Positions 52,682 through 64,000 of a stretch of 64,000 nucleotides of DNA are shown piece by piece. Location of the stretch: the NCBI RefSeq assembly GCF_013085255.1, contig NZ_JABFCX010000002.1, forward strand, positions 186,001-250,000, read 5' to 3'. The DNA comes from Parvularcula mediterranea. GTDB taxonomy: Bacteria > Pseudomonadota > Alphaproteobacteria > Caulobacterales > Parvularculaceae. A model generated the notes under the pieces. That model did not search any database. It was given only the letters and a program-made list of their open reading frames with translations, and was not told the origin of the DNA. Made by a program: the position numbers and the translations under genes. The stretch's first letter is position 1. The number at the start of each line of letters is the position of its first letter.

Positions 52682-53610
52682 GGCTTCTTCTCAGCGCCCC
52701 CCTTGAGCTTGTAATAAGCATAGTCGGGGTTTCGGAGATCGAAATAGTCGAGGGTCTCGGCCAGCGTACCCGTGCCAGCTTCTAGGGAATGGAGACGGCG
52801 GAGCGCCTGGTCCACATCCTTCTCGGGAAGCTTGGCGAGGAAGCCGTTGCGGAAGCGAATGTCGAACCTCCGCCCGCCGACCACTTCGATGCCTGCGGTG
52901 CGGGCGTAGAGGACCGGGTGCTTCCTGAGCTCCGCCAAGAAGCCCATCGCTTCGGACGGGTCTTCGGTGCCGGAGATGGTGAGAAGTTCGGTATACTGCA
53001 CAGGCTCAGCGGCGCGGATCAGCACTCCGTCGGCATCGACAACGAAGAACTCGCCTGCGCCGTTCTCGTAAAGCGCGCGAGGGGTGCGCTCGATGACCGA
53101 GATATGGATGGTGTCCGGCAAGAGCTTGGTGACGCTGGCGTGCTTGACCGGGCCAAGCGCCTCGACTGCCTCGCGGAGTTCGTGCGGATCGAGTGTGACG
53201 AGCGAGCGGCCGATGATCGAGCCCAGCTCGTCGTCGCGCAGGGCCGCCATCACTTCACGGGTCGAAAGGCTGTCCCCGCCCTTGATGGTCACGCGCATCA
53301 CGTTGAGGCCGAGGTGCTTCGCCGTCTCACCAGGGAGCGCCGCAAGGCGGCCCGGCATGGTCTGAAGCTGGCCTGAGAAAACGGTGTAGAGGAAGGCGAG
53401 GAGCGCGGCGGCGATAATCCCGAGGAACGCGGCTTGAATGGCGCCCGTCGCCATCAGCGCGCCGCCCTCGTCCAGCCTTGCTCCGAGAGCTTCGAGCGCA
53501 CCGACCTGACGGCGGGAGACCCTGCGCCGGGGCGCGGGTTTCTTGGCTGCTGGGCGCTTGCGCGTCTGTTTCTTCGCTACCTTCGGCACGAGGCGTCTTC
53601 GACCATCCAC
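52678..53610 (-). CDS. ftsQ: Cell division protein FtsQ
   Basis: 310 residues from GTG 53610; GTG 53589 is an alternative that would cut the overlap with ddl from 34 to 13 bases. A very basic cytosolic tail (KKQTRKRPAAKKPAPRRRVSRR) precedes one membrane helix at about 57-78 (IQAAFLGIIAAALLAFLYTVF). The POTRA domain (VMRVTIKGGDSLSTREVMAAL) and beta domain (IERTPRALYENGAGEFFVVDADGVLI) follow. It bridges FtsK with the FtsB-FtsL part of the divisome. Standard position after ddl. Confidence 0.92.
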   Translation of the reverse strand: MDGRRRLVPKVAKKQTRKRPAAKKPAPRRRVSRRQVGALEALGARLDEGGALMATGAIQAAFLGIIAAALLAFLYTVFSGQLQTMPGRLAALPGETAKHLGLNVMRVTIKGGDSLSTREVMAALRDDELGSIIGRSLVTLDPHELREAVEALGPVKHASVTKLLPDTIHISVIERTPRALYENGAGEFFVVDADGVLIRAAEPVQYTELLTISGTEDPSEAMGFLAELRKHPVLYARTAGIEVVGGRRFDIRFRNGFLAKLPEKDVDQALRRLHSLEAGTGTLAETLDYFDLRNPDYAYYKLKGGAEKKP

Positions 53611-54509
53611 TGGACGAGCTCGTCGAACGAGATGCCGCGATAGGCGGCCTGCTCGGCGGCGAGCGACGTCGGCGTCATACCCGGTTGGGTATTCACCTCC
53701 AGGATAAACAGGCCGTTAACCCCAAGTTCCGGGTTCCAGCGAAAATCGACCCGGCTGAGCCCCCTGCACCCAAGGACAGCGCCCGCTTTGGCCGCCATCG
53801 CAAGGGCTTCGGCGGTTACCTCTTCAGGCAGCTCGGCCGGAATGACGTGGGGCGCGGCCTTGTCGGAATACTTGGCGTCGTAGTCGTAGAAGTCGGCCTT
53901 GATCTCGGTCACCGCAAGGGGCTCATCACCCTTCAGCGCGACGGTGAGCTCGTGGCCGGGGATGTAGGTTTCGACGATAGCGCGGCCGCCATAGACCTCG
54001 TCATGGAGGATCTCTGACCGGGGCGCGGGATCGCTCTCCTCACGGATGATCACCACGCCGAAGGTCGAGCCGTCTGCAATGGGTTTAAGGACGTAAGGCG
54101 TCGGCATCGGGTGGACGCCGGAGAGGTTGTCCGTCTCGACGATGTGCCCGCCCGGAACGCGCAGGCCAGCAGCGGCCATGACGTCCTTGGAGAGCGCCTT
54201 GTCCATGCAGAGGGCCGAGGAGAGGACGCCGGAATGGGTGTAAGGGATGCCCATCATCTCGAGGAGGCCCTGAACCGTGCCGTCCTCGCCGAAGGGGCCG
54301 TGGAGCGCGTTGAAGACGACGTCCGGCCCCTGCCCGCCGAAGCTGTCCCTGATCTGACGGTCGACCTCACGGGTGACGTCGATAGCTTCGACGTCGAAGC
54401 TGCCGTTCGCTTCGAGGGTCTTCCGAGCGGTTTCACCGGAGACGAGGCTGACGCCTTTCTCCGCGGAGAGGCCGCCCATCAGGACGAGGACTTTCTTCAT
54501 GTCAGCCAT
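53577..54509 (-). CDS. ddl: D-alanine-D-alanine ligase
   Basis: 310 residues. VLVLMGGLSAEKGVSLVSGETA is the Ddl N-terminus (usual GGxSxERexSLxSG, here EKG), VVFNALHGPFGEDGTVQGLLEMMGIPYTHSGVLSSALCMDK follows, then the ATP-grasp parts VLKPIADGSTFGVVI and SRVDFRWNPELGVNGLFILEVNTQPGMTPTSL. It makes the D-Ala-D-Ala dipeptide used by MurF. It lies 3 bases after the 54513 membrane-protein gene. Confidence 0.96.
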   Translation of the reverse strand: MADMKKVLVLMGGLSAEKGVSLVSGETARKTLEANGSFDVEAIDVTREVDRQIRDSFGGQGPDVVFNALHGPFGEDGTVQGLLEMMGIPYTHSGVLSSALCMDKALSKDVMAAAGLRVPGGHIVETDNLSGVHPMPTPYVLKPIADGSTFGVVIIREESDPAPRSEILHDEVYGGRAIVETYIPGHELTVALKGDEPLAVTEIKADFYDYDAKYSDKAAPHVIPAELPEEVTAEALAMAAKAGAVLGCRGLSRVDFRWNPELGVNGLFILEVNTQPGMTPTSLAAEQAAYRGISFDELVQWMVEDASCRR

Positions 54510-54512
54510 CGG

Positions 54513-54962
54513 TCAGTGTCCCTCTTCTCTCTCGTCCTTTATGCCCTGCGCGAAGCGCATGAACGCTTCGATCCGGTCAGGGCCACCGCCTGTGAAGCGC
54601 CCGTCGAGGAAAACCTTATCGATGGTCTCACCGTCTTCGGTCCTCACCGGCGGATCGATCAGCAACCAGGGCCGATCATAGGTCAGGGTCTCTCCCGAAA
54701 GAGTAAAGCGCCGGGGACGCCTGCGGCCTGCGATATGCGCGAGGCTGGGCGCTGTACCCTGACCGTCTGCACCCAAACGGATCATGTAGCCCTTGCGGAG
54801 TGAATGAATGAGGCCAACGAGGCTCGCCAGAAGTGCTGCAAGGACGAGCGGCAGGAAAAGCGCCCACTCCATCACAGACCCTCGGGAGAAAACGAACAGG
54901 CTCAGGAGGGACGTCGCGCCGAAAGCTGCGCCGAGGAGCGGCCAGCGGAAGCCGAGCGTCAC
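54513..54962 (-). CDS. Unknown two-helix membrane protein inside the dcw cluster
   Basis: 149 residues from GTG 54962, with GGGAGG 6 bases upstream and a GTGA overlap with murB. Two hydrophobic helices occupy the first 60 residues (WPLLGAAFGATSLLSLFVFS and WALFLPLVLAALLASLVGLIHSL). A C-terminal domain of about 85 residues (RLGADGQGTAPSLAHIAGRRRPRRFTLSGETLTYDRPWLL) is strand-rich and may be a small cytosolic beta domain of the PH-like type. Not a standard dcw gene and I recognise no family. Very tight coupling to murB and ddl suggests a cell-wall role. Confidence 0.75.
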   Translation of the reverse strand: MTLGFRWPLLGAAFGATSLLSLFVFSRGSVMEWALFLPLVLAALLASLVGLIHSLRKGYMIRLGADGQGTAPSLAHIAGRRRPRRFTLSGETLTYDRPWLLIDPPVRTEDGETIDKVFLDGRFTGGGPDRIEAFMRFAQGIKDEREEGH

Positions 54963-55843
54963 GCGAGCCTCCCGATGCGCTTGATCTCCCATTCGAGCTC
55001 GTAGCCGAGCTCTTTCTGCACGTCCGTGCGGATCGATTCGCCGAGGGTCTCGAGATCGGCGGCGGTGGCATTGCCCTTGTTGATCATGAAGTTGGCGTGG
55101 AGCTCCGACATCTGAGCATCGCCAACGCTGCGGCCCCTACCGCCAACGGCGTCGACGGACTGCCATGCGGAGCGGCCTCCTGAAAGGTCAGGGTCGGGGT
55201 TCTTGAAGGTGGAGCCGCCGGTTTTCTCGCGGATGGGCTGGGTCGCCTCGCGCTTCTCCATGATCTCCTTGATCTTGGCTTGCTCTTCCTCCGCATCGCC
55301 CTTGGGCACCTCAAAGGTGGCTTCGATCAGGACGAGGTCAGCCGGGACGTCGGCCCAGCGGTAGCGGAAGCCGAAATCGTCCGCTGACAGAGTGACGATC
55401 TCGCCCTTGCGGTTGATGGCGCGGCCGGAGACGAAGTGGTCCCTGGTCTCACCGCCATAAGCGCCAGCGTTCATGCGCATTGCGCCGCCGATCGTGCCCG
55501 GGATGCCTGCGTAGAAGCTGAGGCCGGAGAGGCCTGCTTTCGCAGCTTCCTTGGCAACCTTGGCATCGAGAGCAGCGGCGCCAGCGCTGACCTTTGCGCC
55601 GTCTACGGAGATCTTGCCGAAGCCGGGGCCAAGACGGATGACTGTGCCTTCGATGCCGTCGTCACGGATGATGACGTTGGAGCCGACGCCGAGAACCGTG
55701 AGCTTCTCGACCGGCGAAAGCTCACGCAGGATCTCGCTCAGCTCTTCCTCCGTGTTCGGAAGGTAGAGCCTATCGGCTGGACCACCAACGCGCAGCCATG
55801 TGTAGGGCGCAAGCTCTGCGTTCTCCATCAGGCGGGCGTTCAT
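54959..55843 (-). CDS. murB: UDP-N-acetylenolpyruvoylglucosamine reductase
   Basis: 294 residues from ATG 55843, with CGGAGG upstream (ATG 55861 rejected). FAD-binding signature YTWLRVGGPADRLYLPN, VLGVGSNVIIRDDGIEGTVIRLG, FYAGIPGTIGGAMRMNAGAYGGET, and the catalytic serine region TGGSTFKNP. It reduces enolpyruvyl-UDP-GlcNAc to UDP-MurNAc. It overlaps the small membrane gene upstream (ATGA) and the next gene downstream (GTGA). Confidence 0.96.
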   Translation of the reverse strand: MNARLMENAELAPYTWLRVGGPADRLYLPNTEEELSEILRELSPVEKLTVLGVGSNVIIRDDGIEGTVIRLGPGFGKISVDGAKVSAGAAALDAKVAKEAAKAGLSGLSFYAGIPGTIGGAMRMNAGAYGGETRDHFVSGRAINRKGEIVTLSADDFGFRYRWADVPADLVLIEATFEVPKGDAEEEQAKIKEIMEKREATQPIREKTGGSTFKNPDPDLSGGRSAWQSVDAVGGRGRSVGDAQMSELHANFMINKGNATAADLETLGESIRTDVQKELGYELEWEIKRIGRLA

Positions 55844-56052
55844 CGCTTGCCTCCGATCCATTCGCGGACCTGGTCTAGCTGTTTGTCGGTCAGCGCGGCG
55901 GCTGCAATCATGGTCATCAGCGCGGCAAATCCGAAGGGTGCGCCGATGTAGAACGGTACGTCACGGGCGACTTCCAGCGCGAAGAAACCCATGACTAGGC
56001 CCAAGAGGCCGATCAGGAGGCGCGTCTTCTGGTGGCGGTTTTCGTCCTTCAC
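55840..56052 (-). CDS. Small two-helix membrane protein between murC and murB
   Basis: 70 residues from GTG 56052; GAGGG lies 8 bases upstream and murC ends 5 bases before. A basic start (VKDENRHQKTR) is followed by two helices (LLIGLLGLVMGFFALEVA, FYIGAPFGFAALMTMIAAAAL) and a charged tail (TDKQLDQVREWIGGKR). No family recognised. Embedded in the dcw operon with 4-base overlap to murB, so it must be co-expressed with wall synthesis. Confidence 0.72.
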   Translation of the reverse strand: MKDENRHQKTRLLIGLLGLVMGFFALEVARDVPFYIGAPFGFAALMTMIAAAALTDKQLDQVREWIGGKR

Positions 56053-56056
56053 GCGA

Positions 56057-57484
56057 CTAGCCCTCAAAGCTCGCAAGGCATTCTGGCAGCGCGTGGGCGT
56101 GCTTGGTGATGTCCCCTGCGCCAAGGCACAGAACGAGGTCGCCATCCTTGGCTTCGGACGCAATGCTGCCCGGCAGCTCGTCGATAGTGCTCAGTGCAAA
56201 GACATTGCGGTGGCCGTTACGGCGCATTCCTGCAGCGAGGCCTTCGGCGTCCTTGCCCTCGATCGGGTCCTCGCCAGCGGCATAGACAGGAGCAATGAAC
56301 ACCGTGTCCGCCTCGTTGGCGCAGGAGCAGAAGGCGTCGAAGAGGTTGTCGAGGCGGGTATAGCGGTGGGGCTGGATGACCGCGATCACCCTGCCCTCGG
56401 TCACGCCGCGCGCCGCTTTCAGGGTCGCGGCGATCTCGACCGGATGGTGGCCGTAATCGTCGATGATCCGCACACCCCTCCAGTCGCCAGTATGGGTGAA
56501 GCGGCGCTTGACGCCTTTGAACTTCGCAAAGCCGTCGACGATCTTCTCGTCCGAACAGCCAAGCTCCCGCGCGATGATCGCCGCGGCGACGGCGTTCTGG
56601 ATGTTGTGCTCGCCTGGCATCGGCAGGCGGCAGCCTTCGAGGCGGTGAAGGGTCTGGGCCCCTTCGCGGAAGTGAATGTCGAAGACCTGAATACCGTTCT
56701 CGACACGGATGTTCTCGGCACGGACATCGGCTTGCGGGTTCAGGCCATAGGTGACGATGCGGCGGTCTGTGATGCGTCCGACCAGCGCCTGCACTTCAGG
56801 ATGATCGAGGCAAACGACACCGAAGCCGTAGAAAGGCGTGTTCTCGATGAACTGGTCGAAGCCCTTCCTCAGGGCGTCGAAGTCGCCCCAATGGTCGAGG
56901 TGCTCAGGGTCAATATTGGTGATGACCGAGACGGTCGTCGGCAGGCGGACGAAGGTGCCGTCGCTCTCGTCAGCCTCGACGACCATCCAGTCGCCGTCGC
57001 CTGAGCGGGAGTTGGCGCCGTAGGCATTGATGACGCCGCCATTGATGACAGTCGGGTCCTTGCCGCCTGCATCCATCAGCGCCGCGATCATCGACGTTGT
57101 CGTCGTTTTGCCGTGGGTGCCCGCGACGCAGACGTTCCATTTGAGGCGCATCAGCTCGGCCAGCATGTCGGCCCTGCGGACAACGGGGATATGCTGCGCG
57201 CGCGCCTCGGCGACCTCGGGGTTTGAGTTCCGGATAGCTGTAGAAGTGACGACAGCTGCGGCGCCGGTAACGTGGGCCTTGTCGTGGCCGATATGAACAG
57301 CGATCCCCTTCTCCCGCAGCCGGTCGAGGATGTCGCTTTCCTGAATGTCCGAGCCTGATACCTCGTAGCCGAGGTTCGACATGATCCGGGCGATGCCGGA
57401 CATGCCGATGCCGCCAATACCGACAAAGTGGATGCGGCCGACGGGAAACGGCAGGCGGATGGAGATGTCGCGTTCTTCGGTCAA
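56057..57484 (-). CDS. murC: UDP-N-acetylmuramate-L-alanine ligase
   Basis: 475 residues; the likely start is TTG 57484, as no ATG or GTG precedes the conserved RIHFVGIGGIGMSGIARIM. The ATP loop is intact: CVAGTHGKTTTTSMIAAL; EADESDGTFVRLPTTVSVITNIDPEHLDHWG gives the magnesium and catalytic residues, and PGEHNIQNAVAAAII and YGHHPVEIAATL complete the Mur ligase pattern. It adds L-alanine to UDP-MurNAc. A canonical contrast to the MurD-like protein nearby. Confidence 0.97.
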   Translation of the reverse strand: MTEERDISIRLPFPVGRIHFVGIGGIGMSGIARIMSNLGYEVSGSDIQESDILDRLREKGIAVHIGHDKAHVTGAAAVVTSTAIRNSNPEVAEARAQHIPVVRRADMLAELMRLKWNVCVAGTHGKTTTTSMIAALMDAGGKDPTVINGGVINAYGANSRSGDGDWMVVEADESDGTFVRLPTTVSVITNIDPEHLDHWGDFDALRKGFDQFIENTPFYGFGVVCLDHPEVQALVGRITDRRIVTYGLNPQADVRAENIRVENGIQVFDIHFREGAQTLHRLEGCRLPMPGEHNIQNAVAAAIIARELGCSDEKIVDGFAKFKGVKRRFTHTGDWRGVRIIDDYGHHPVEIAATLKAARGVTEGRVIAVIQPHRYTRLDNLFDAFCSCANEADTVFIAPVYAAGEDPIEGKDAEGLAAGMRRNGHRNVFALSTIDELPGSIASEAKDGDLVLCLGAGDITKHAHALPECLASFEG

Positions 57485-57507: not shown

Positions 57508-58611
57508 TCAGCCGAGTTTTCCGGCTGTGAGGTCTTGGGTCAGGTCAGCGAGCGCAGCGGCTGCGCCCTCGGCCATCCGGCCCTTTGCCGCATCGGCCAT
57601 GCTGGTCAAACGGGTGGTGTCGGAGAGCACCGCTTCGAGGGTCTTAGCGGCATTGTCGACGCTGAGATCGTCTTCGAGGATCAGCTCAGCCGCGCCCACG
57701 TCGGTGAGGACGGTGGCGTTCATGCGCTGGTGGTCATCCATGGCGATCTTGAGGGGCACCAGCAGCGAAGGCCTGCCGATGACCGAAAGTTCCGCAACGG
57801 AGGATGCGCCGGACCGCGCGACGATCAGGTGGCTGCTTGCGATCCTCTCGGGAAGGTCGGTGAAGAACGGCGCAAGCTCGACCGAGCGGGGGTCGATGCC
57901 TGCCGCTTCATAGGTCTGGCGCGCGGCGTCGATGCCGTCTTCGGCCACCTGATGGGTGATGCGGAGGCGGTCCTTGAGCGCTGATGGGAGCTTGCCGATC
58001 GCCTCGGGGAAGATGCGGGCGAAGAGCGATGCGCCCTGGCTGCCGCCGAAGATGAGGAGATGGAGCGGGCCGCCTGCCATCGGCTTGTCGAACGGCTCGG
58101 AGGCCGCCTCGATCACGGCGCGGCGGACAGGGTTGCCGGTTTCGCGCAGGCGCATGGCGCCCTTGGGTGCGCGGTCGAGCTTGGGGAAGCCGTGGGCGAT
58201 GAAGCCTGCCTTGCCCGCTGCCAGACGGTTGGCGCGGCCAAGGACGGCGTTCTGCTCATGGATGCCGGTGGCAATGCCTGACTGCTGGGCTGCAAGCATG
58301 GAGGGCGCGGAAGGGTAGCCGCCGAAACCGATGACCGCGTCTGCGCCGAAGCGCTTCAGCGCCTTCTTCGCCGTGCCGATGCCGCCGAGGAGGGTCATCG
58401 CGGCGGAGATCTTGGCGAGGATGCCGCTGGCCGAGGGGCTGGCTGCCTTGAGGAGCACCTTCTCGTCGTGGGGGAAGTCCTTGGTGTAGCGGTCGCCCCG
58501 CGCATCGGTGAGCAGCATGACCTGCCAGCCGCGCGAGCGGGCTTCTTCGGCCAGAGCCTGTGCGGGGAACATGTGGCCGCCGGTACCGCCGGCTGCGAGG
58601 GCAATCTTCAT
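57508..58611 (-). CDS. murG: UDP-GlcNAc:lipid I N-acetylglucosaminyltransferase
   Basis: 367 residues of the GT-B fold. The N-terminal LAAGGTGGHMFPAQALAEEARSRGW is the MurG glycine loop; VIGFGGYPSAPSMLAAQQSGIATGIHEQNAVLGRANRLAAG is the acceptor region; LIFGGSQGASLF and SHLIVARSGASSVAELSVIGRPSLLVPL bind UDP-GlcNAc. It converts lipid I to lipid II on the inner face of the membrane. It overlaps the ftsW stop by 4 bases. Confidence 0.97.
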   Translation of the reverse strand: MKIALAAGGTGGHMFPAQALAEEARSRGWQVMLLTDARGDRYTKDFPHDEKVLLKAASPSASGILAKISAAMTLLGGIGTAKKALKRFGADAVIGFGGYPSAPSMLAAQQSGIATGIHEQNAVLGRANRLAAGKAGFIAHGFPKLDRAPKGAMRLRETGNPVRRAVIEAASEPFDKPMAGGPLHLLIFGGSQGASLFARIFPEAIGKLPSALKDRLRITHQVAEDGIDAARQTYEAAGIDPRSVELAPFFTDLPERIASSHLIVARSGASSVAELSVIGRPSLLVPLKIAMDDHQRMNATVLTDVGAAELILEDDLSVDNAAKTLEAVLSDTTRLTSMADAAKGRMAEGAAAALADLTQDLTAGKLG

Positions 58612-59735
58612 GCACGCCTTTTGCGGGTGAGCACCAAGAGAAGTCCAGCCGTGAAACCGGTCGCCAACATGGATGATCCTCCATAACTGATGAGTGGCAG
58701 GGTCATGCCCTTGGCCGGGAGGACGCCGAGGTTCACGCCGATATTGATCGACGCCTGAATGCAGAGAGCGGTCGTCAGCCCTGCGATGGCGCAGCGCTTG
58801 AAGACGTCTGTGCTGGCAAGCGCTGCCGTGAGCCCACGGATCGCGATGACGGCGAAGAGACCGATGATGAGGAGGCCGATCAGGAGGCCGAACTCTTCAA
58901 TGGCGACGGCGAAGACGAAGTCCGTCTGGCTGTCCGGCAGCGATGCTTTTACCCCTGTCGCCTCGTGGAGGTCGTGGCCGAAGACGCCACCTGAGCGGAT
59001 GGCCTCGGCCGCCTTGTCGGTCTGGTAGGCGTCGCCCGATGAGGGATCGAGGAAACGGTCGATCCGTGCGCGGACGTGAGACTGGGTGAGATAGCCTAGG
59101 GTCAGCGCGCTGGCCGCTGCTGAGCCGAGGGCTGCGATCCATGCCCAGCTGAAGCCCGCCACAAAGAGCATCACCGCCCAGATCGCGGTAAGCAGCAGCC
59201 ACTGGCCATAGTCCGGCTGGGATAGGAGTAGGACTGACGCGATACCGTAGACGAGGAGGCTTGCGAGGAAGCCCGGGAAGCCGCTGTCAGGCTTGGCTGA
59301 GAGGAACCACGCGACGAGGATCGCGAAGCCGGGCTTTAAGAATTCAGAGGGCTGAAGACCGAAGCTGCCGATGGGGATCCAGCGCTTGGCGCCCTTGATC
59401 TCGGGGCCGACGAGGAGCGCCACGGCCATGAGGAAGAGCGCGCCGAGGGCAGCAAGGATACCGATGCGGCGGGCCTGAAGAGGCGTGAGAGCTGCGGTCA
59501 GGCAGGCACCCGTCAGCGTCGCGCCTAGGAAGATGACGTGCCGCTCGGTGAAGTAGAAAGGCTCAGTGATGCCGACCCGCGCTGCGGCGACGGGGCTCGC
59601 AGCGAAGCTCAAGACGAGGCCGGTGAGCGCGAGTAACCCAAAGGCATAGACCAGCGCCATGTCGTAGCCGCCGAGCTGGCCAGCGCGGACCTTGGCTGCG
59701 CCTGCTTCGAGGCGTGAGAGGGTGGCTTCAAGCAT
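58608..59735 (-). CDS. ftsW: Septal peptidoglycan polymerase FtsW (SEDS)
   Basis: 375 residues with about ten helices. GAKRWIPIGSFGLQPSEFLKPGFAI, PDSQTDFVFAVAIEEFGLLIGLLIIG (with the catalytic aspartate region) and NIGVNLGVLPAKGMTLPLISYGGSSML are SEDS signatures. It polymerises glycan strands from lipid II with FtsI at the division site. It starts 8 bases inside the end of the MurD-like gene and overlaps murG. Confidence 0.96.
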   Translation of the reverse strand: MLEATLSRLEAGAAKVRAGQLGGYDMALVYAFGLLALTGLVLSFAASPVAAARVGITEPFYFTERHVIFLGATLTGACLTAALTPLQARRIGILAALGALFLMAVALLVGPEIKGAKRWIPIGSFGLQPSEFLKPGFAILVAWFLSAKPDSGFPGFLASLLVYGIASVLLLSQPDYGQWLLLTAIWAVMLFVAGFSWAWIAALGSAAASALTLGYLTQSHVRARIDRFLDPSSGDAYQTDKAAEAIRSGGVFGHDLHEATGVKASLPDSQTDFVFAVAIEEFGLLIGLLIIGLFAVIAIRGLTAALASTDVFKRCAIAGLTTALCIQASINIGVNLGVLPAKGMTLPLISYGGSSMLATGFTAGLLLVLTRKRRA

Positions 59736-61044
59736 GGGCTCTCCCCTGCTCGGCCATTTCCTTCAGCGCCCGGAGCTTGAAGAGCTCGCCCTGACGGGAG
59801 AAGCCTTCCGCCCCCGGAGAGTAAAGGAGCACGGGAGCAGCAGTGGGCTCGCGGCGGAGGAGGTCATTGGCAGCACGGATCGCAGCTTCGGTGGCGGCTT
59901 CGGCGTCCTTGAAAGTCACCACACCATCGACCGGCGGGCCTGAACCATCAGGGTGCGTCACGAAGAAAGAGCCGCGCATCCCGCCTTTCACCCGCTTGGA
60001 AAGGTCGCCGTGCCGATGGCCGATCCAGAAGACGTCAGGGCATGCCGTGATCGCGGCCTCGGTGGAGGACTGGCAGCTCGCCTCACGGTCATCGACGAAG
60101 ACGATCCGGCCTTCGGTGCCGATGCAATCGAAGCGGCCATCGAGGCCACGGAAGCTCGTGAGCGCCGCGATGATCTGGTCGTCATTGATGCCAAAATGGG
60201 CGGCGACGGCGGCAGCGGCCGCAGCGTCTTGGCCCATGTGATCACCGAGCAGGCTACCGCTGTCGGAGTAGCTGCCGATGCGCCGGGTCCTGCCCCCGCG
60301 CACGGCGTAGAGATTGCGTTCGAGCGCGAACCAGCCGTCGGAGAGGGTCGCGCCGCCGCTGACGGCCACGATGTCCCGGGCCGAGGAAGCGCTCTGCCTG
60401 CGGACGGCCATCAGGAGGCTCTGGCAGCCGATATCGTCCGTGCCGAGAACGGCGACCTGCGCGGTCGTCAGAAGCTCGATCGCCGCCTCGCGCGCCTTGT
60501 CGCCCACCTGCGCGCCGCGCTCCTCGGTGAGGTTGAGGACGATGGCCGCGCCTGCGCCGAGGGTCAGGGCATCGCGTACGGCAGAGGGCTCTGCGCGGAG
60601 GATGAGATGCTCCGTCAGCGCACCAAGGGCGTTAAGAAAGCCCCGGCCCTTATCGACTTCCACGGCATCCTGCCCGCCCTGGGCGAGGAGCCTGAGGAGC
60701 AGTGCTGAGGTGACCGCCTTCCCTGCCGAGCCGGTGATGACCGTCCTGCGCGCACGGTCCACGGCGAGGCCCTGCTGCACGTGGCCGAGGAAAGCGAGGT
60801 CGGAGAGGACGGGCATGTCCCGCTCCACCGCCTGCCGCTGAAGGCTCGCCCGGACCGGATGCTCGACCCCGAGCCCGTAGATGAAGGCGCCTGCGCCCTG
60901 CGGAAGCTCAGCCTCCGGACTGTCAGGCGAGATCATCGCGACGTCGAAACCGCGCTCGTCGAGGACACGGCTCGCCGCATGGGTGAGCGGCGGGCCGAAA
61001 TAGGCGATCTGACCGCTGGCGGGGATGTTGGCGGTCTCTTGCAC
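59728..61044 (-). CDS. MurD-like protein lacking Mur ligase catalytic residues
   Basis: 438 residues from GTG 61044, in the murD slot between mraY and ftsW. The length and overall pattern fit MurD, but key positions differ: P-loop GSAGKAV (105-111) for GTNGKST; no E-L-S-S-F-Q-L segment before AAIVLNLTEER (166-176), where the usual TEDH histidine is arginine; no carbamylated lysine before TTAQVAVLGTDD; GDHMGQD (267-273) for G-x-HNxxN; LDGR (301-304) for LPHR; VDDREASC (317-324) for NDSKATN; SPGAEGF for SPACASF. ATP use and ligation of D-glutamate look impossible. Homology rests on position and pattern. Confidence 0.75.
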   Translation of the reverse strand: MQETANIPASGQIAYFGPPLTHAASRVLDERGFDVAMISPDSPEAELPQGAGAFIYGLGVEHPVRASLQRQAVERDMPVLSDLAFLGHVQQGLAVDRARRTVITGSAGKAVTSALLLRLLAQGGQDAVEVDKGRGFLNALGALTEHLILRAEPSAVRDALTLGAGAAIVLNLTEERGAQVGDKAREAAIELLTTAQVAVLGTDDIGCQSLLMAVRRQSASSARDIVAVSGGATLSDGWFALERNLYAVRGGRTRRIGSYSDSGSLLGDHMGQDAAAAAAVAAHFGINDDQIIAALTSFRGLDGRFDCIGTEGRIVFVDDREASCQSSTEAAITACPDVFWIGHRHGDLSKRVKGGMRGSFFVTHPDGSGPPVDGVVTFKDAEAATEAAIRAANDLLRREPTAAPVLLYSPGAEGFSRQGELFKLRALKEMAEQGRAHA

Positions 61045-61048
61045 AGGC

Positions 61049-62152
61049 TTACCTCAGCTTGAGAGTGGACAGGCCGATCATCGCGAGGATGATCGCGACG
61101 ATCCAGAAACGGATGACGATGGTCGGCTCTTTCCAGCCGAGCTGCTCGAAATGGTGGTGCACCGGCGCCATCTTGAAGACCCGCTTGCCGGTCAGTTTGA
61201 AGCTGGCGATCTGGATCATCACCGACAGTGCCTCCACCACGAAGAGCCCGCCAATGATGGCTAGGACGATTTCGTGCTTGATGGCCACCGCCATGGCACC
61301 GAGCGCTCCGCCGAGGGCCAGCGAGCCCGTGTCGCCCATGAAGATCATGGCCGGCGGTGCGTTGAACCAGAGGAAGCCGAGCCCTGCACCGATGATCGCG
61401 GCACAGATGATCGCCAACTCCCCTGCCCCCGGAACATAGATGATGCCGAGATATTCGGCATAGTCCGCACGGCCCGTGAGGTAGGCGATGATGAGGAAAG
61501 CACCGGCTGCAATCATGACCGGGACAATGGCGAGGCCATCGAGGCCATCTGTCAGGTTCACGGCGTTCGAGCTGCCGACGATGACGATGGCTGCGAACGG
61601 AAAGATCAGGAAGCCCAGGGGGATGATCGCGCCCCAGAAGGGAATGGCGAGGCCTGTCGCAATTTCCGAATCGGCGCCCTGCGAGCTGGAGAGAACGGCC
61701 ACCGCCGCTGCGCCTGCCACGAAGGCCACGGCGAACTGGAAGAGCAGCTTCATCGAACCCACGACACCGTCGGCGGACTGCTTCTTTACCTTCTTGTAGT
61801 CGTCGTAGAACCCGAGAAGCCCGAAGCTCAGCGTCACGCCGAGCACCATCCAGACGTAAGGGTTGTTGAGCGGCGCCCAGAGCAGCGTCGAGATCACCGT
61901 CGCGAGCAGGATCAGCACGCCGCCCATGGTCGGGGTCCCCGCCTTCTCGATGATGTGGCTTTGCGGGCCATCCTTGCGGATCGGCTGGCCCTTGCCCTGC
62001 TTCACGCGCATCCAGTCGATCATGCCGGGGCCGACGATGAAGGCGATGATGAGCGCCGTCATGGTCGCACCGCCCACGCGGAACGTGATGTAGCGGAACA
62101 GGTTGAAGATCTGATATTCGTCCGCAAGCGGAACGAAGAGGTGATAGAGCAT
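61049..62152 (-). CDS. mraY: Phospho-N-acetylmuramoyl-pentapeptide transferase
   Basis: 367 residues, ten helices. [77 protein letters not shown] and [21 protein letters not shown] are all canonical MraY motifs, including the three catalytic aspartates. It forms lipid I on undecaprenyl phosphate. The start overlaps the murF stop (TAATG). Confidence 0.98.
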
Positions 62153-63528
62153 TAGACGGTAGTCCCCACCTTGAGAAACGCCTCGACAAGGGCACCTACC
62201 CTAGAGGCGTTCGATCCCTTGAAAAGCACCGTATCGCCCTCATGGAGATCATCTAACAAAGGTTGAAGAAGTCCTTGCGCAGTTTCAGCATGGCTACCGC
62301 GCTTTGCGGCGGGGAGTGCGTCACGCAGGTGCGCCATGTCGGCCCCTGCGGTGTGGACGATGTCGGCGGAGACCGCTGCTTTTGGGGCGAGGCCTGCGTG
62401 AAGATCAGGCGAGGTGGGCCCGAGCTCTTTCATCTCGCCGAGGATCGCGATGCGGCGGCCGCCCTTCTTTTCCGAAAGGACGCTGAGCGCGGCTTCCATG
62501 GAGGCAGGGTTGGCGTTGTAGCTCTCGTCGAGAACGAGGACGGTCTTGCCGTCGATGGTGAGCTTGCGGTCCTCGCCGCGTCCCGCGCCGGGGCGGAACT
62601 GTTCGAGGGCTGCGGCAGCGTCCTTGGCGGAGAGACCTGCGAGCTTGGCCGCGGTCAGGGCGGCAGCGGCGTTCCTGACATGATGAGGCCCGGCGACGTG
62701 GAGGCGGAAGCTGACGGCTTCGCCCAGAATGTCGGCATCGACGTCGCTATAGGCGTTTTGCAGGTCGATCTTGTTGAGGCGGCTCTCGAAGGCCCCTTCC
62801 CCGAAGCGCAGGATCTCGGTCACGCCAGCCTCGCGGCAGCGCTGTTCCAGCCTCTCGGCGTAACGGCTCTCGCCGGGGATGATCATGGCTCCGCCGCGCC
62901 GCAGGCCCTCGGCGATCTCGGCCTTGGCATCGGCAATGGCTTCCATGGACCCAAGAAATTCGAGGTGCGCTGCAGCGATGGTCGTGATGAGCGCGATATG
63001 CGGCTGGACGAGGCTCGTCAGGGCACGGATCTCGCCCGCGTGGTTCATGCCCATCTCGAAGACGCCGACATCAGCGGACGGAGGAAGCTCCGCCAGCGTC
63101 AGCGGCACGCCGATATGGTTGTTGAAGCTCTTCTCCGCCGCGTGGACCTCGCCCATCGGCTCTAGGCACGCGCGGAGCATTTCCTTGGTGGTGGTCTTGC
63201 CTGCGGAGCCCGTCACGCCGATCAGCGGCGCAAAGCTGCGATCACGGGCGGTGCGCGCCATAGCCTCAACGGCGCGCAGGGTATCGTTGACGATGAGGCA
63301 GGGCCCGCCCGCGATCTCGCGGGTGACGATGGCGGCGGCTGCGCCTTTCTCAAACGCTTGCGGCACGAAGTTATGGCCGTCGCGCTCAGCTTCGAGCGCC
63401 ACGAAGATATCGCCAGGCTGGAGCGTGCGGGTGTCGATGGACAGTCCGTTCCCGGACCAGTCGCCACCTGTCAGCTTTCCGCCGGTTGCGCCTTGCACCT
63501 GATAGGCTTGCCAGAGTGCGTCGCTCAT
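62152..63528 (-). CDS. murF: UDP-MurNAc-tripeptide D-alanyl-D-alanine ligase
   Basis: 458 residues. ATP loop [17 protein letters not shown] is intact, as are [60 protein letters not shown] and [19 protein letters not shown]. It adds the D-Ala-D-Ala dipeptide made by Ddl. Its ATG overlaps the murE stop (ATGA). The first loop residues GSAGK are shared with the MurD-like protein, but here TT follows, as in active ligases. Confidence 0.97.
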
Positions 63529-64000
63529 GCGTCACCTCCCACTTTCTGGAGGGCTTCGCGGGCCTTTTCGAGATCGCTGAAGGGATAGATCACGTCGCCC
63601 ACCATCTGGCCGCGCTCGTGGCCTTTGCCTGCGATGACGAGGGTGTCCCCTGCTTTCAGGGAAGCAACGCCGTGGCGGATGGCTTCCTCGCGGTCGCCGA
63701 TGATGGTGGCTTTGGGAGCGCCCTCGGCCACCTGCGCGCGGATGAAGGCGGGGTCTTCCGTCCTCGGATTGTCGTCGGTGATGATGACATGCTCGGCCAG
63801 CGAAGCCGCTGCTGCACCCATCTGGGAGCGCTTGGCAGTGTCGCGGTCGCCCCCGGCACCGACGATGACATGGATGCGCCCTGCGGTATGCGGACGGATG
63901 GCCTTGAGCACAGTCTCGACGGCGGCGGGCGTGTGGGCGTAGTCGACGAACACCCCTGCTTCGCCATCAGGAAAGCGGCGGACGCCTGCAGGCTCCATCC
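63525..64000 (-). CDS. murE: UDP-MurNAc-dipeptide meso-DAP ligase, C-terminal part
   Basis: The frame is open to the window end, so only about 158 C-terminal residues are present. VFVDYAHTPAAVETVLKAIRPH, VGAGGDRDTAKRSQMGAAAA, TDDNPRTEDP and AGKGHERGQ are MurE signatures. The DDNPR motif selects meso-diaminopimelate, as in Gram-negative bacteria. It is the first gene of the visible dcw run on the minus strand; its start lies beyond base 64000. Confidence 0.96.
   Translation of the reverse strand, partial: MEPAGVRRFPDGEAGVFVDYAHTPAAVETVLKAIRPHTAGRIHVIVGAGGDRDTAKRSQMGAAAASLAEHVIITDDNPRTEDPAFIRAQVAEGAPKATIIGDREEAIRHGVASLKAGDTLVIAGKGHERGQMVGDVIYPFSDLEKAREALQKVGGDA

Follow-up and report, generated by a model that had tools for sequence, protein, structure and literature searches.

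The closest described system is the MurD2–MurL pair of Xanthomonas oryzae (XOO_1320/XOO_1319; PMC8788868, PMC5808125). According to PMC8788868, MurD2 ligates L-glutamate and MurL then epimerises the product to D-glutamate using ATP, and Parvularcula is named among the MurD2/MurL carriers. The bypass is therefore already known, and its occurrence in this genus is not a new system. Two further precedents concern Mur ligases away from catalysis: MurG of T. maritima binds MurD, MurE and MurF (PMC6420597), and the plant MurE known as PAP11 has come to sit at the periphery of the plastid RNA polymerase (PMC12681378). Here we describe a protein that stands in the place of MurD in a Parvularcula genome. 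The MurG scaffold is relevant as a known type of non-catalytic contact made by MurD, with the difference that ordinary Mur enzymes take part there and a dead MurD would do so here. PAP11 is likewise a Mur ligase homologue in a structural place of another complex, but there the homologue is MurE, the organism a plant and the complex the plastid RNA polymerase, with a partner seen by cryo-EM, whereas the protein described here stays in the cell wall operon with putative partners. Our literature search, confined largely to freely accessible papers, returned no description of a MurD pseudoenzyme or of this gene, and on MurL in its epimerase role it returned two papers. Within the searches made, what is new is a retained and repeatedly evolved MurD pseudoenzyme under selection; we found no account of the fate of the replaced enzyme.

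A MurD-derived protein without the scored catalytic or substrate residues

The window, which is the whole 64,000-nucleotide stretch of Parvularcula mediterranea DNA that was analysed, contains a dcw run consisting of the end of murE, murF, mraY, the slot gene, ftsW, murG, murC, murB and ddl (Table 1). We use the term slot for the place between mraY and ftsW. The original prediction described the slot gene as intact and of MurD length, and this was correct: it is an open minus-strand frame at the coordinates given in Table 1, with stops on the plus strand. A gap of 4 nt separates the mraY stop codon from the start of the gene, which at its other end shares 8 nt with ftsW (ATGCTTGA). As a side observation, MurG and FtsW (window 57508-59735) both score under the curated cut-offs of their families, so the dcw region may be fast-evolving.

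Table 1 Features of the dcw run in the window
Feature	Position	Strand	Family match or motif
murE, C-terminal part; remainder outside the window	63525..64000	-	P-loop GTNGKT, read from L094
murF, P-loop GSAGKT intact	62152..63528	-	TIGR01143, 387.2 bits
mraY, upstream neighbour of the slot gene	61049..62152	-	TIGR00445, 392.6 bits, above cut-off
Apparent MurD-descended pseudoenzyme in the murD slot, 438 aa, GTG start	59728..61044	-	TIGR01087, 64.7 bits, below cut-off
ftsW, downstream neighbour of the slot gene	58608..59735	-	TIGR02614, 300.2 bits; cut-off of 337.5 not reached
murG	57508..58611	-	TIGR01133, 236.8 bits; cut-off of 250.25 not reached
murC, P-loop GTHGKT intact	56057..57484	-	TIGR01082, 496.2 bits
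murB	54959..55861	-	NF010480, 361.5 bits
ddl	53577..54509	-	NF002378, 333.7 bits

The best family for the slot protein is MurD, although its score falls well below the curated TIGR01087 cut-off of 211.95 bits. A Pfam search of the protein returned no Mur ligase domain, and its closest solved relative is E. coli MurD (E = 1.1e-7). Both the descent from MurD and the mraY–murD–ftsW position were confirmed. The protein thus resembles canonical MurD in its slot between mraY and ftsW, its length and its best-match family, but differs in its score below the family cut-off and in the loss of every catalytic or substrate residue that we scored.

For this scoring, we followed seven residues in E. coli MurD numbering (E157, H183, K198, H301, K319, T321 and K348) in an alignment with E. 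coli MurD, and none of the seven is present in the window protein. Among them is Lys198, whose carbamylated form is required for MurD activity, as stated in PMC4816537. In addition, the P-loop reads GSAGKAV and has lost its Ser/Thr. By comparison, all seven residues are kept in the canonical MurDs of the nine relatives scored and in that of Woodsholea, which together make up the canonical side of the comparison. The claim that the MurD catalytic motifs are altered was therefore borne out for the scored residues but needs correcting on one point: R302, D317 and the lysine of the P-loop (K115) are retained, so that the ATP-binding residues are not all gone. The accompanying claim that MurC, MurE and MurF keep all of their motifs stood for the motif that was scored, the P-loop, which is intact in all three. 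Taken together, the slot gene appears to encode a MurD-derived pseudoenzyme without the residues for catalysis and D-glutamate binding.

The same pattern extends to 25 degenerate slot proteins, comprising 16 from Parvularculaceae (including those of genomes G001 and G008), that of G013 and eight from Maricaulaceae. Each lacks at least five of the seven residues: K348 is lost in 25, H183, H301 and K319 in 24 each, K198 and T321 in 23 each, and E157 in 13, with a lysine beside an alignment gap at position 198 in G003 and G005 scored as retained. K115 and D317 are each kept in 17 of the 25 and R302 in 15; K115 is gone from all eight Maricaulaceae copies. All 16 Parvularculaceae copies (G013 not counted) and all eight Maricaulaceae copies carry the changes H301G and N316D. 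We take these two changes to be a likeness to other Mur ligases, of which the MurD2 part was compared here.

Three simpler accounts of the residue pattern were rejected. The alignment with nine canonical MurDs and the E. coli enzyme argues against residues that are merely shifted. Chance or sequencing damage is ruled out by orthologues with 53-61% identity in three genomes of the same genus and 33-36% in others. Another Mur ligase moved into the slot is ruled out as well, because the window copy and all seven further slot copies scanned match MurD better than any other family, although in two Maricaulaceae copies the match is weak (E = 1.8e-4 and 3.8e-5); Woodsholea supplied the eighth protein of that scan, a canonical one.

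MurD2–MurL as the probable replacement

The genome (3.21 Mb in three contigs, 99.7% complete) contains a single TIGR01087 match above the cut-off. This second MurD-family protein, MurD2, lies at C1:1518206-1519429, 1.27 Mb from the slot gene, and scores 218.2 bits; a search of the full genome for a second intact MurD thus had a positive outcome. MurD2 has the checked residues intact and adjoins a homologue of MurL, which scores 254.3 bits with NF041275 and does not reach that model's cut-off of 700, set for Xanthomonadales. The pair spans C1:1518206-1520772, outside the window, and the closest named relatives of its MurL, among 80 of 86 loci, are those of P. lutaonensis and P. maris. The original prediction had offered either an active murD elsewhere or an unusual route to D-glutamate, and each half was right in part, since the second ligase keeps the checked residues and stands beside MurL. 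Because MurD2 adjoins MurL, D-glutamate is very probably added as L-glutamate and then epimerised, which would make MurD2–MurL the system that performs D-glutamate addition in this genome.

MurD2 could be read beside 18 of the 19 MurL genes found, the exception being the short locus of G016. K115, S116, N138, E157, H183 and K198 are kept in 18 of 18 MurD2 proteins (the G020 protein is a fragment, visible only that far), and Arg occupies the K348 site in all 17 full-length ones. The similarity to X. oryzae lies in a MurD2 adjoining MurL and the lack of MurI; the difference is that the MurD2 of the window genome has Asp where that of X. oryzae has Glu197. At this site (D182), Asp is present in G000, G003, G005 and G006 (L001:1483-2922) and Glu in the other 14. 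A review states that E197D changes stereospecificity, so the L-glutamate specificity of the enzyme in the window genome is not certain.

We also looked for other sources of D-glutamate. No MurI was found in the window genome by a search that was positive in 11 of 14 control genomes. In the family to which this genome's relatives were assigned (f1), no MurI match exceeded 33 bits among 37 genomes (six gave weak matches), whereas MurI scored at least 119 bits in 21 of 24 genomes from four other families. A D-amino-acid-transaminase-like (D-AAT-like) gene was present at E<=4.2e-66 in all 18 f1 genomes without MurL. By contrast, the best such match in the 19 f1 MurL carriers was no stronger than E=2e-47, with none in G025, so that within f1 MurL and the strong D-AAT-like gene are complementary in distribution. 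The name of this enzyme is tentative because the D-AAT model cut-off was passed in only 1 of 61 genomes; the best match in the window genome reached 119.5 bits against a cut-off of 277.45. Judged by the MurI and D-AAT models, the window genome appears to be without another D-glutamate source.

Slot status across relatives

We searched 61 genomes, 37 of them in f1, and found MurL in 19, every one in f1. A full-length slot gene stripped of its residues is kept in 15 of these 19. Of the remainder, G025 gave a partial slot match, and three lack the slot gene: in G022 mraY adjoins ftsW, in G030 a 5.7-kb insertion separates them (L089:1107-6876), and in G036 neither a slot gene nor mraY lies in the 2.5 kb upstream of ftsW, which reach the contig end. 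By eye, the G030 insertion presumably encodes an ATPase resembling OLD-family nucleases, a TetR-like regulator and a hydrolase. One MAG has a near-canonical MurD that lacks five of the seven residues.

MurL carriers of the Maricaulaceae type (n=10; Oceanicaulis, Alkalicaulis and relatives, some titled only Alphaproteobacteria) came from a MurL scan of named genomes, in which 80 of 86 loci were kept, followed by a search for MurD in 21 of 22 chosen genomes; G455 and G457 share coordinates with G013 and G027 and were treated as the same genomes. Eight of the ten have a slot ORF, of 437-461 aa, for which canonical MurD was the best match among the queries used, at 25-29% identity. In the other two (G450 and G453), mraY adjoins ftsW and the slot is absent. 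In Woodsholea maritima (G443), MurL and MurD2 occur together with a MurD that is canonical throughout. The MurL carriers therefore include graded stages, from Woodsholea with an intact MurD, through the MAG without five of the seven residues, to five genomes that have lost the slot.

A stripped slot gene is also present in two MAGs of the same genus as the window genome, G001 and G008, but neither yielded MurL (with an alignment query included) or MurD2; both possess a D-AAT-like gene. The G001 bin consists of 320 contigs with a completeness of 89%, and that of G008 of 700 contigs with a completeness of 92% and 6% contamination. Their D-AAT-like genes (C302 and C542; L280 and L281) are 60% identical and lie on contigs with a GC content below that of their dcw regions (0.572 versus 0.621 in G001). 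The 12.5-kb G001 contig has 553 bp in common with G008, corresponding to the D-AAT gene, plus a second short patch; its match to G000 covers 131 bp, and no match was seen in the remaining seven genomes of the genus. It is likely that incompleteness and contamination account for the missing MurL and MurD2, and the D-AAT-like genes may reflect either contamination or a true return to the D-glutamate route. Were both bins complete, they would have no MurD other than the slot protein.

Probable repeated origin of stripped MurDs

The 25 full-length stripped MurDs occupy the same slot in Parvularculaceae and Maricaulaceae and fall in at least three places on a tree of the dcw proteins MraY, FtsW, MurG and MurC (56 rows; a quick method, with long branches). 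G013 and the Maricaulaceae group are each nested within a canonical clade, that of f1 in the case of G013, and both stand apart from the stripped Parvularculaceae, which branch from an unresolved fork. On the tree without four distant rows (G454, G456, G458 and G460), parsimony gave four changes between canonical and dead-or-absent states. Topologies that placed G013 with the Parvularculaceae group (p-AU 6.6e-15), or every dead or absent row in one clade (p-AU 1.6e-4), were rejected. On the basis of these separate positions and rejected trees, we conclude that MurD was probably converted to a dead form at least three times, with the caveats of long branches and a quick method.

One ancient event was considered and ruled out by the rejected single-clade trees, which are themselves quick trees with long branches and four rows dropped. 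On a MurL tree of 60 picked rows, Parvularcula/Aquisalinus (18 rows) and Oceanicaulis (10 rows) form separate clades, and neither clade includes G013 or Woodsholea, which sit on long branches whose fork is unresolved.

Selection on the slot protein and its possible role

We estimated dN/dS (NG86) for the 21 slot pairs whose identity reached 50% or more, taking ORFs from stop to stop, so that some values include codons overlapping another gene. The values were 0.063-0.504 in 20 pairs, and one pair was saturated. In ten bootstrapped pairs, dN/dS was 0.063-0.450 and every upper 95% limit was below 0.6. Eight canonical MurD pairs gave 0.090-0.197, and 7 of the 10 bootstrapped slot pairs (0.199-0.450) lay above this range, indicating that constraint on the slot is mostly weaker. 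In two pairs, Aquisalinus G015/G033 (0.063) and G012/G020 of genus g4 (0.075), it was as tight as in a working MurD. When neutral evolution of the window gene was simulated, 18.6% of copies had no stop at 0.1 substitutions per site, a share that fell to 1.2% at 0.3 and to 0 of 500 at 0.575. Because dN/dS is below 1 in the estimable pairs, the dead slot proteins are, by this codon-level measure, under purifying selection that keeps the ORF while the catalytic residues are lost. The earlier view that the gene is not in recent decay was upheld by this constraint, measured on orthologues from relatives, and by their full length. The slot is nevertheless dispensable in some genomes, as it is absent from G022, G030, G036, G450 and G453.

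We consider it likely that the slot gene is a MurD-derived pseudoenzyme, replaced by MurD2–MurL and kept for a non-catalytic job. Once MurD2–MurL took over D-glutamate addition, the slot MurD would have been freed from catalysis; it could then have been kept at its old operon place, retaining the contacts of MurD without the chemistry, most likely as a partner in the lipid II assembly complex with MurG, MraY, FtsW and the other Mur ligases. The original prediction had put forward a scaffold for MraY, FtsW and MurG as an example of what such a protein might be. The Parvularcula protein may still bind nucleotide. The broader proposal, that in two alphaproteobacterial families the old MurD repeatedly became a non-catalytic, selected part of the lipid II machinery wherever MurD2–MurL took over, is more tentative, and we would put it somewhat below even chances. 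If it is true, a structural function of MurD, distinct from the reaction it catalyses, would have existed all along and would be seen on its own in these bacteria. The repeated retention of a stripped MurD under selection offers a natural test of whether Mur ligases act beyond catalysis as parts of a lipid II assembly complex, a question of long standing. In practical terms, annotation by position would label a dead protein MurD here, with the real ligase elsewhere.

The strongest competitor, which we regard as improbable but worth weighing, is a slowly dying pseudogene whose frame stays open only through translational coupling to ftsW and whose protein is idle. The 8-nt overlap, the graded decay series with its outright losses and the seven bootstrapped pairs above the canonical range all fit such a gene. 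Coupling, however, requires an open frame and not a conserved protein, two close pairs have dN/dS values (0.063 and 0.075) below those of all eight canonical pairs, and the slotless genomes show that ftsW works without the slot gene. We think it rather less probable again that the slot protein remains enzymatically active, as a ligase or nucleotide-binding enzyme acting on a different substrate. The retention of K115, D317 and R302 in most Parvularculaceae copies (17, 17 and 15 of the 25) and the fixation of H301G and N316D in both families (16/16, without G013, and 8/8) would suit a changed activity, but K198, needed for Mg2+ positioning, is gone in 23 of 25 (the two exceptions, G003 and G005, being the lysine beside a gap) and H183 in 24, the window copy has lost the P-loop Ser/Thr, and all eight Maricaulaceae copies have lost K115.

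Least plausible of all, to the point that we would be surprised by it, is a slot protein that works as MurD through shifted residues while MurD2–MurL serves something else. It draws on G001 and G008, in which a degenerate slot is accompanied by no other detectable MurD; these are, however, incomplete and fragmented bins, and what the G001 D-AAT contig has in common with other genomes of the genus is limited to short patches. Moreover, the key residues are absent from the alignment and not shifted, the only TIGR01087 match above the cut-off in the window genome is MurD2, and the f1 MurL carriers are without a clear MurI or strong D-AAT by the two models.

Other MurL carriers

In Candidatus Roizmanbacteria (L258:7117-11945, L182), MurL and MurD2 occupy the murD position, flanked by mraY and ftsW. 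This arrangement inside the dcw cluster supports MurD2–MurL as a functional replacement for MurD. Seven further carriers are slotless, with mraY adjoining ftsW: Marinicella, Wenzhouxiangella, a Xanthomonadales MAG, a Rhizobiaceae MAG, CC_bin14 and two Geodermatophilus.

In a sample of 397 genomes of the phylum, MurL was found in 21, the window genome included. MurD was scored in the 20 other MurL genomes, and the dcw locus was read in G166 alone. This more distant genome has, as seen by scores, a dcw MurD of 355 bits (C2:88529-89836) alongside MurD2–MurL (C3:970964-973671).
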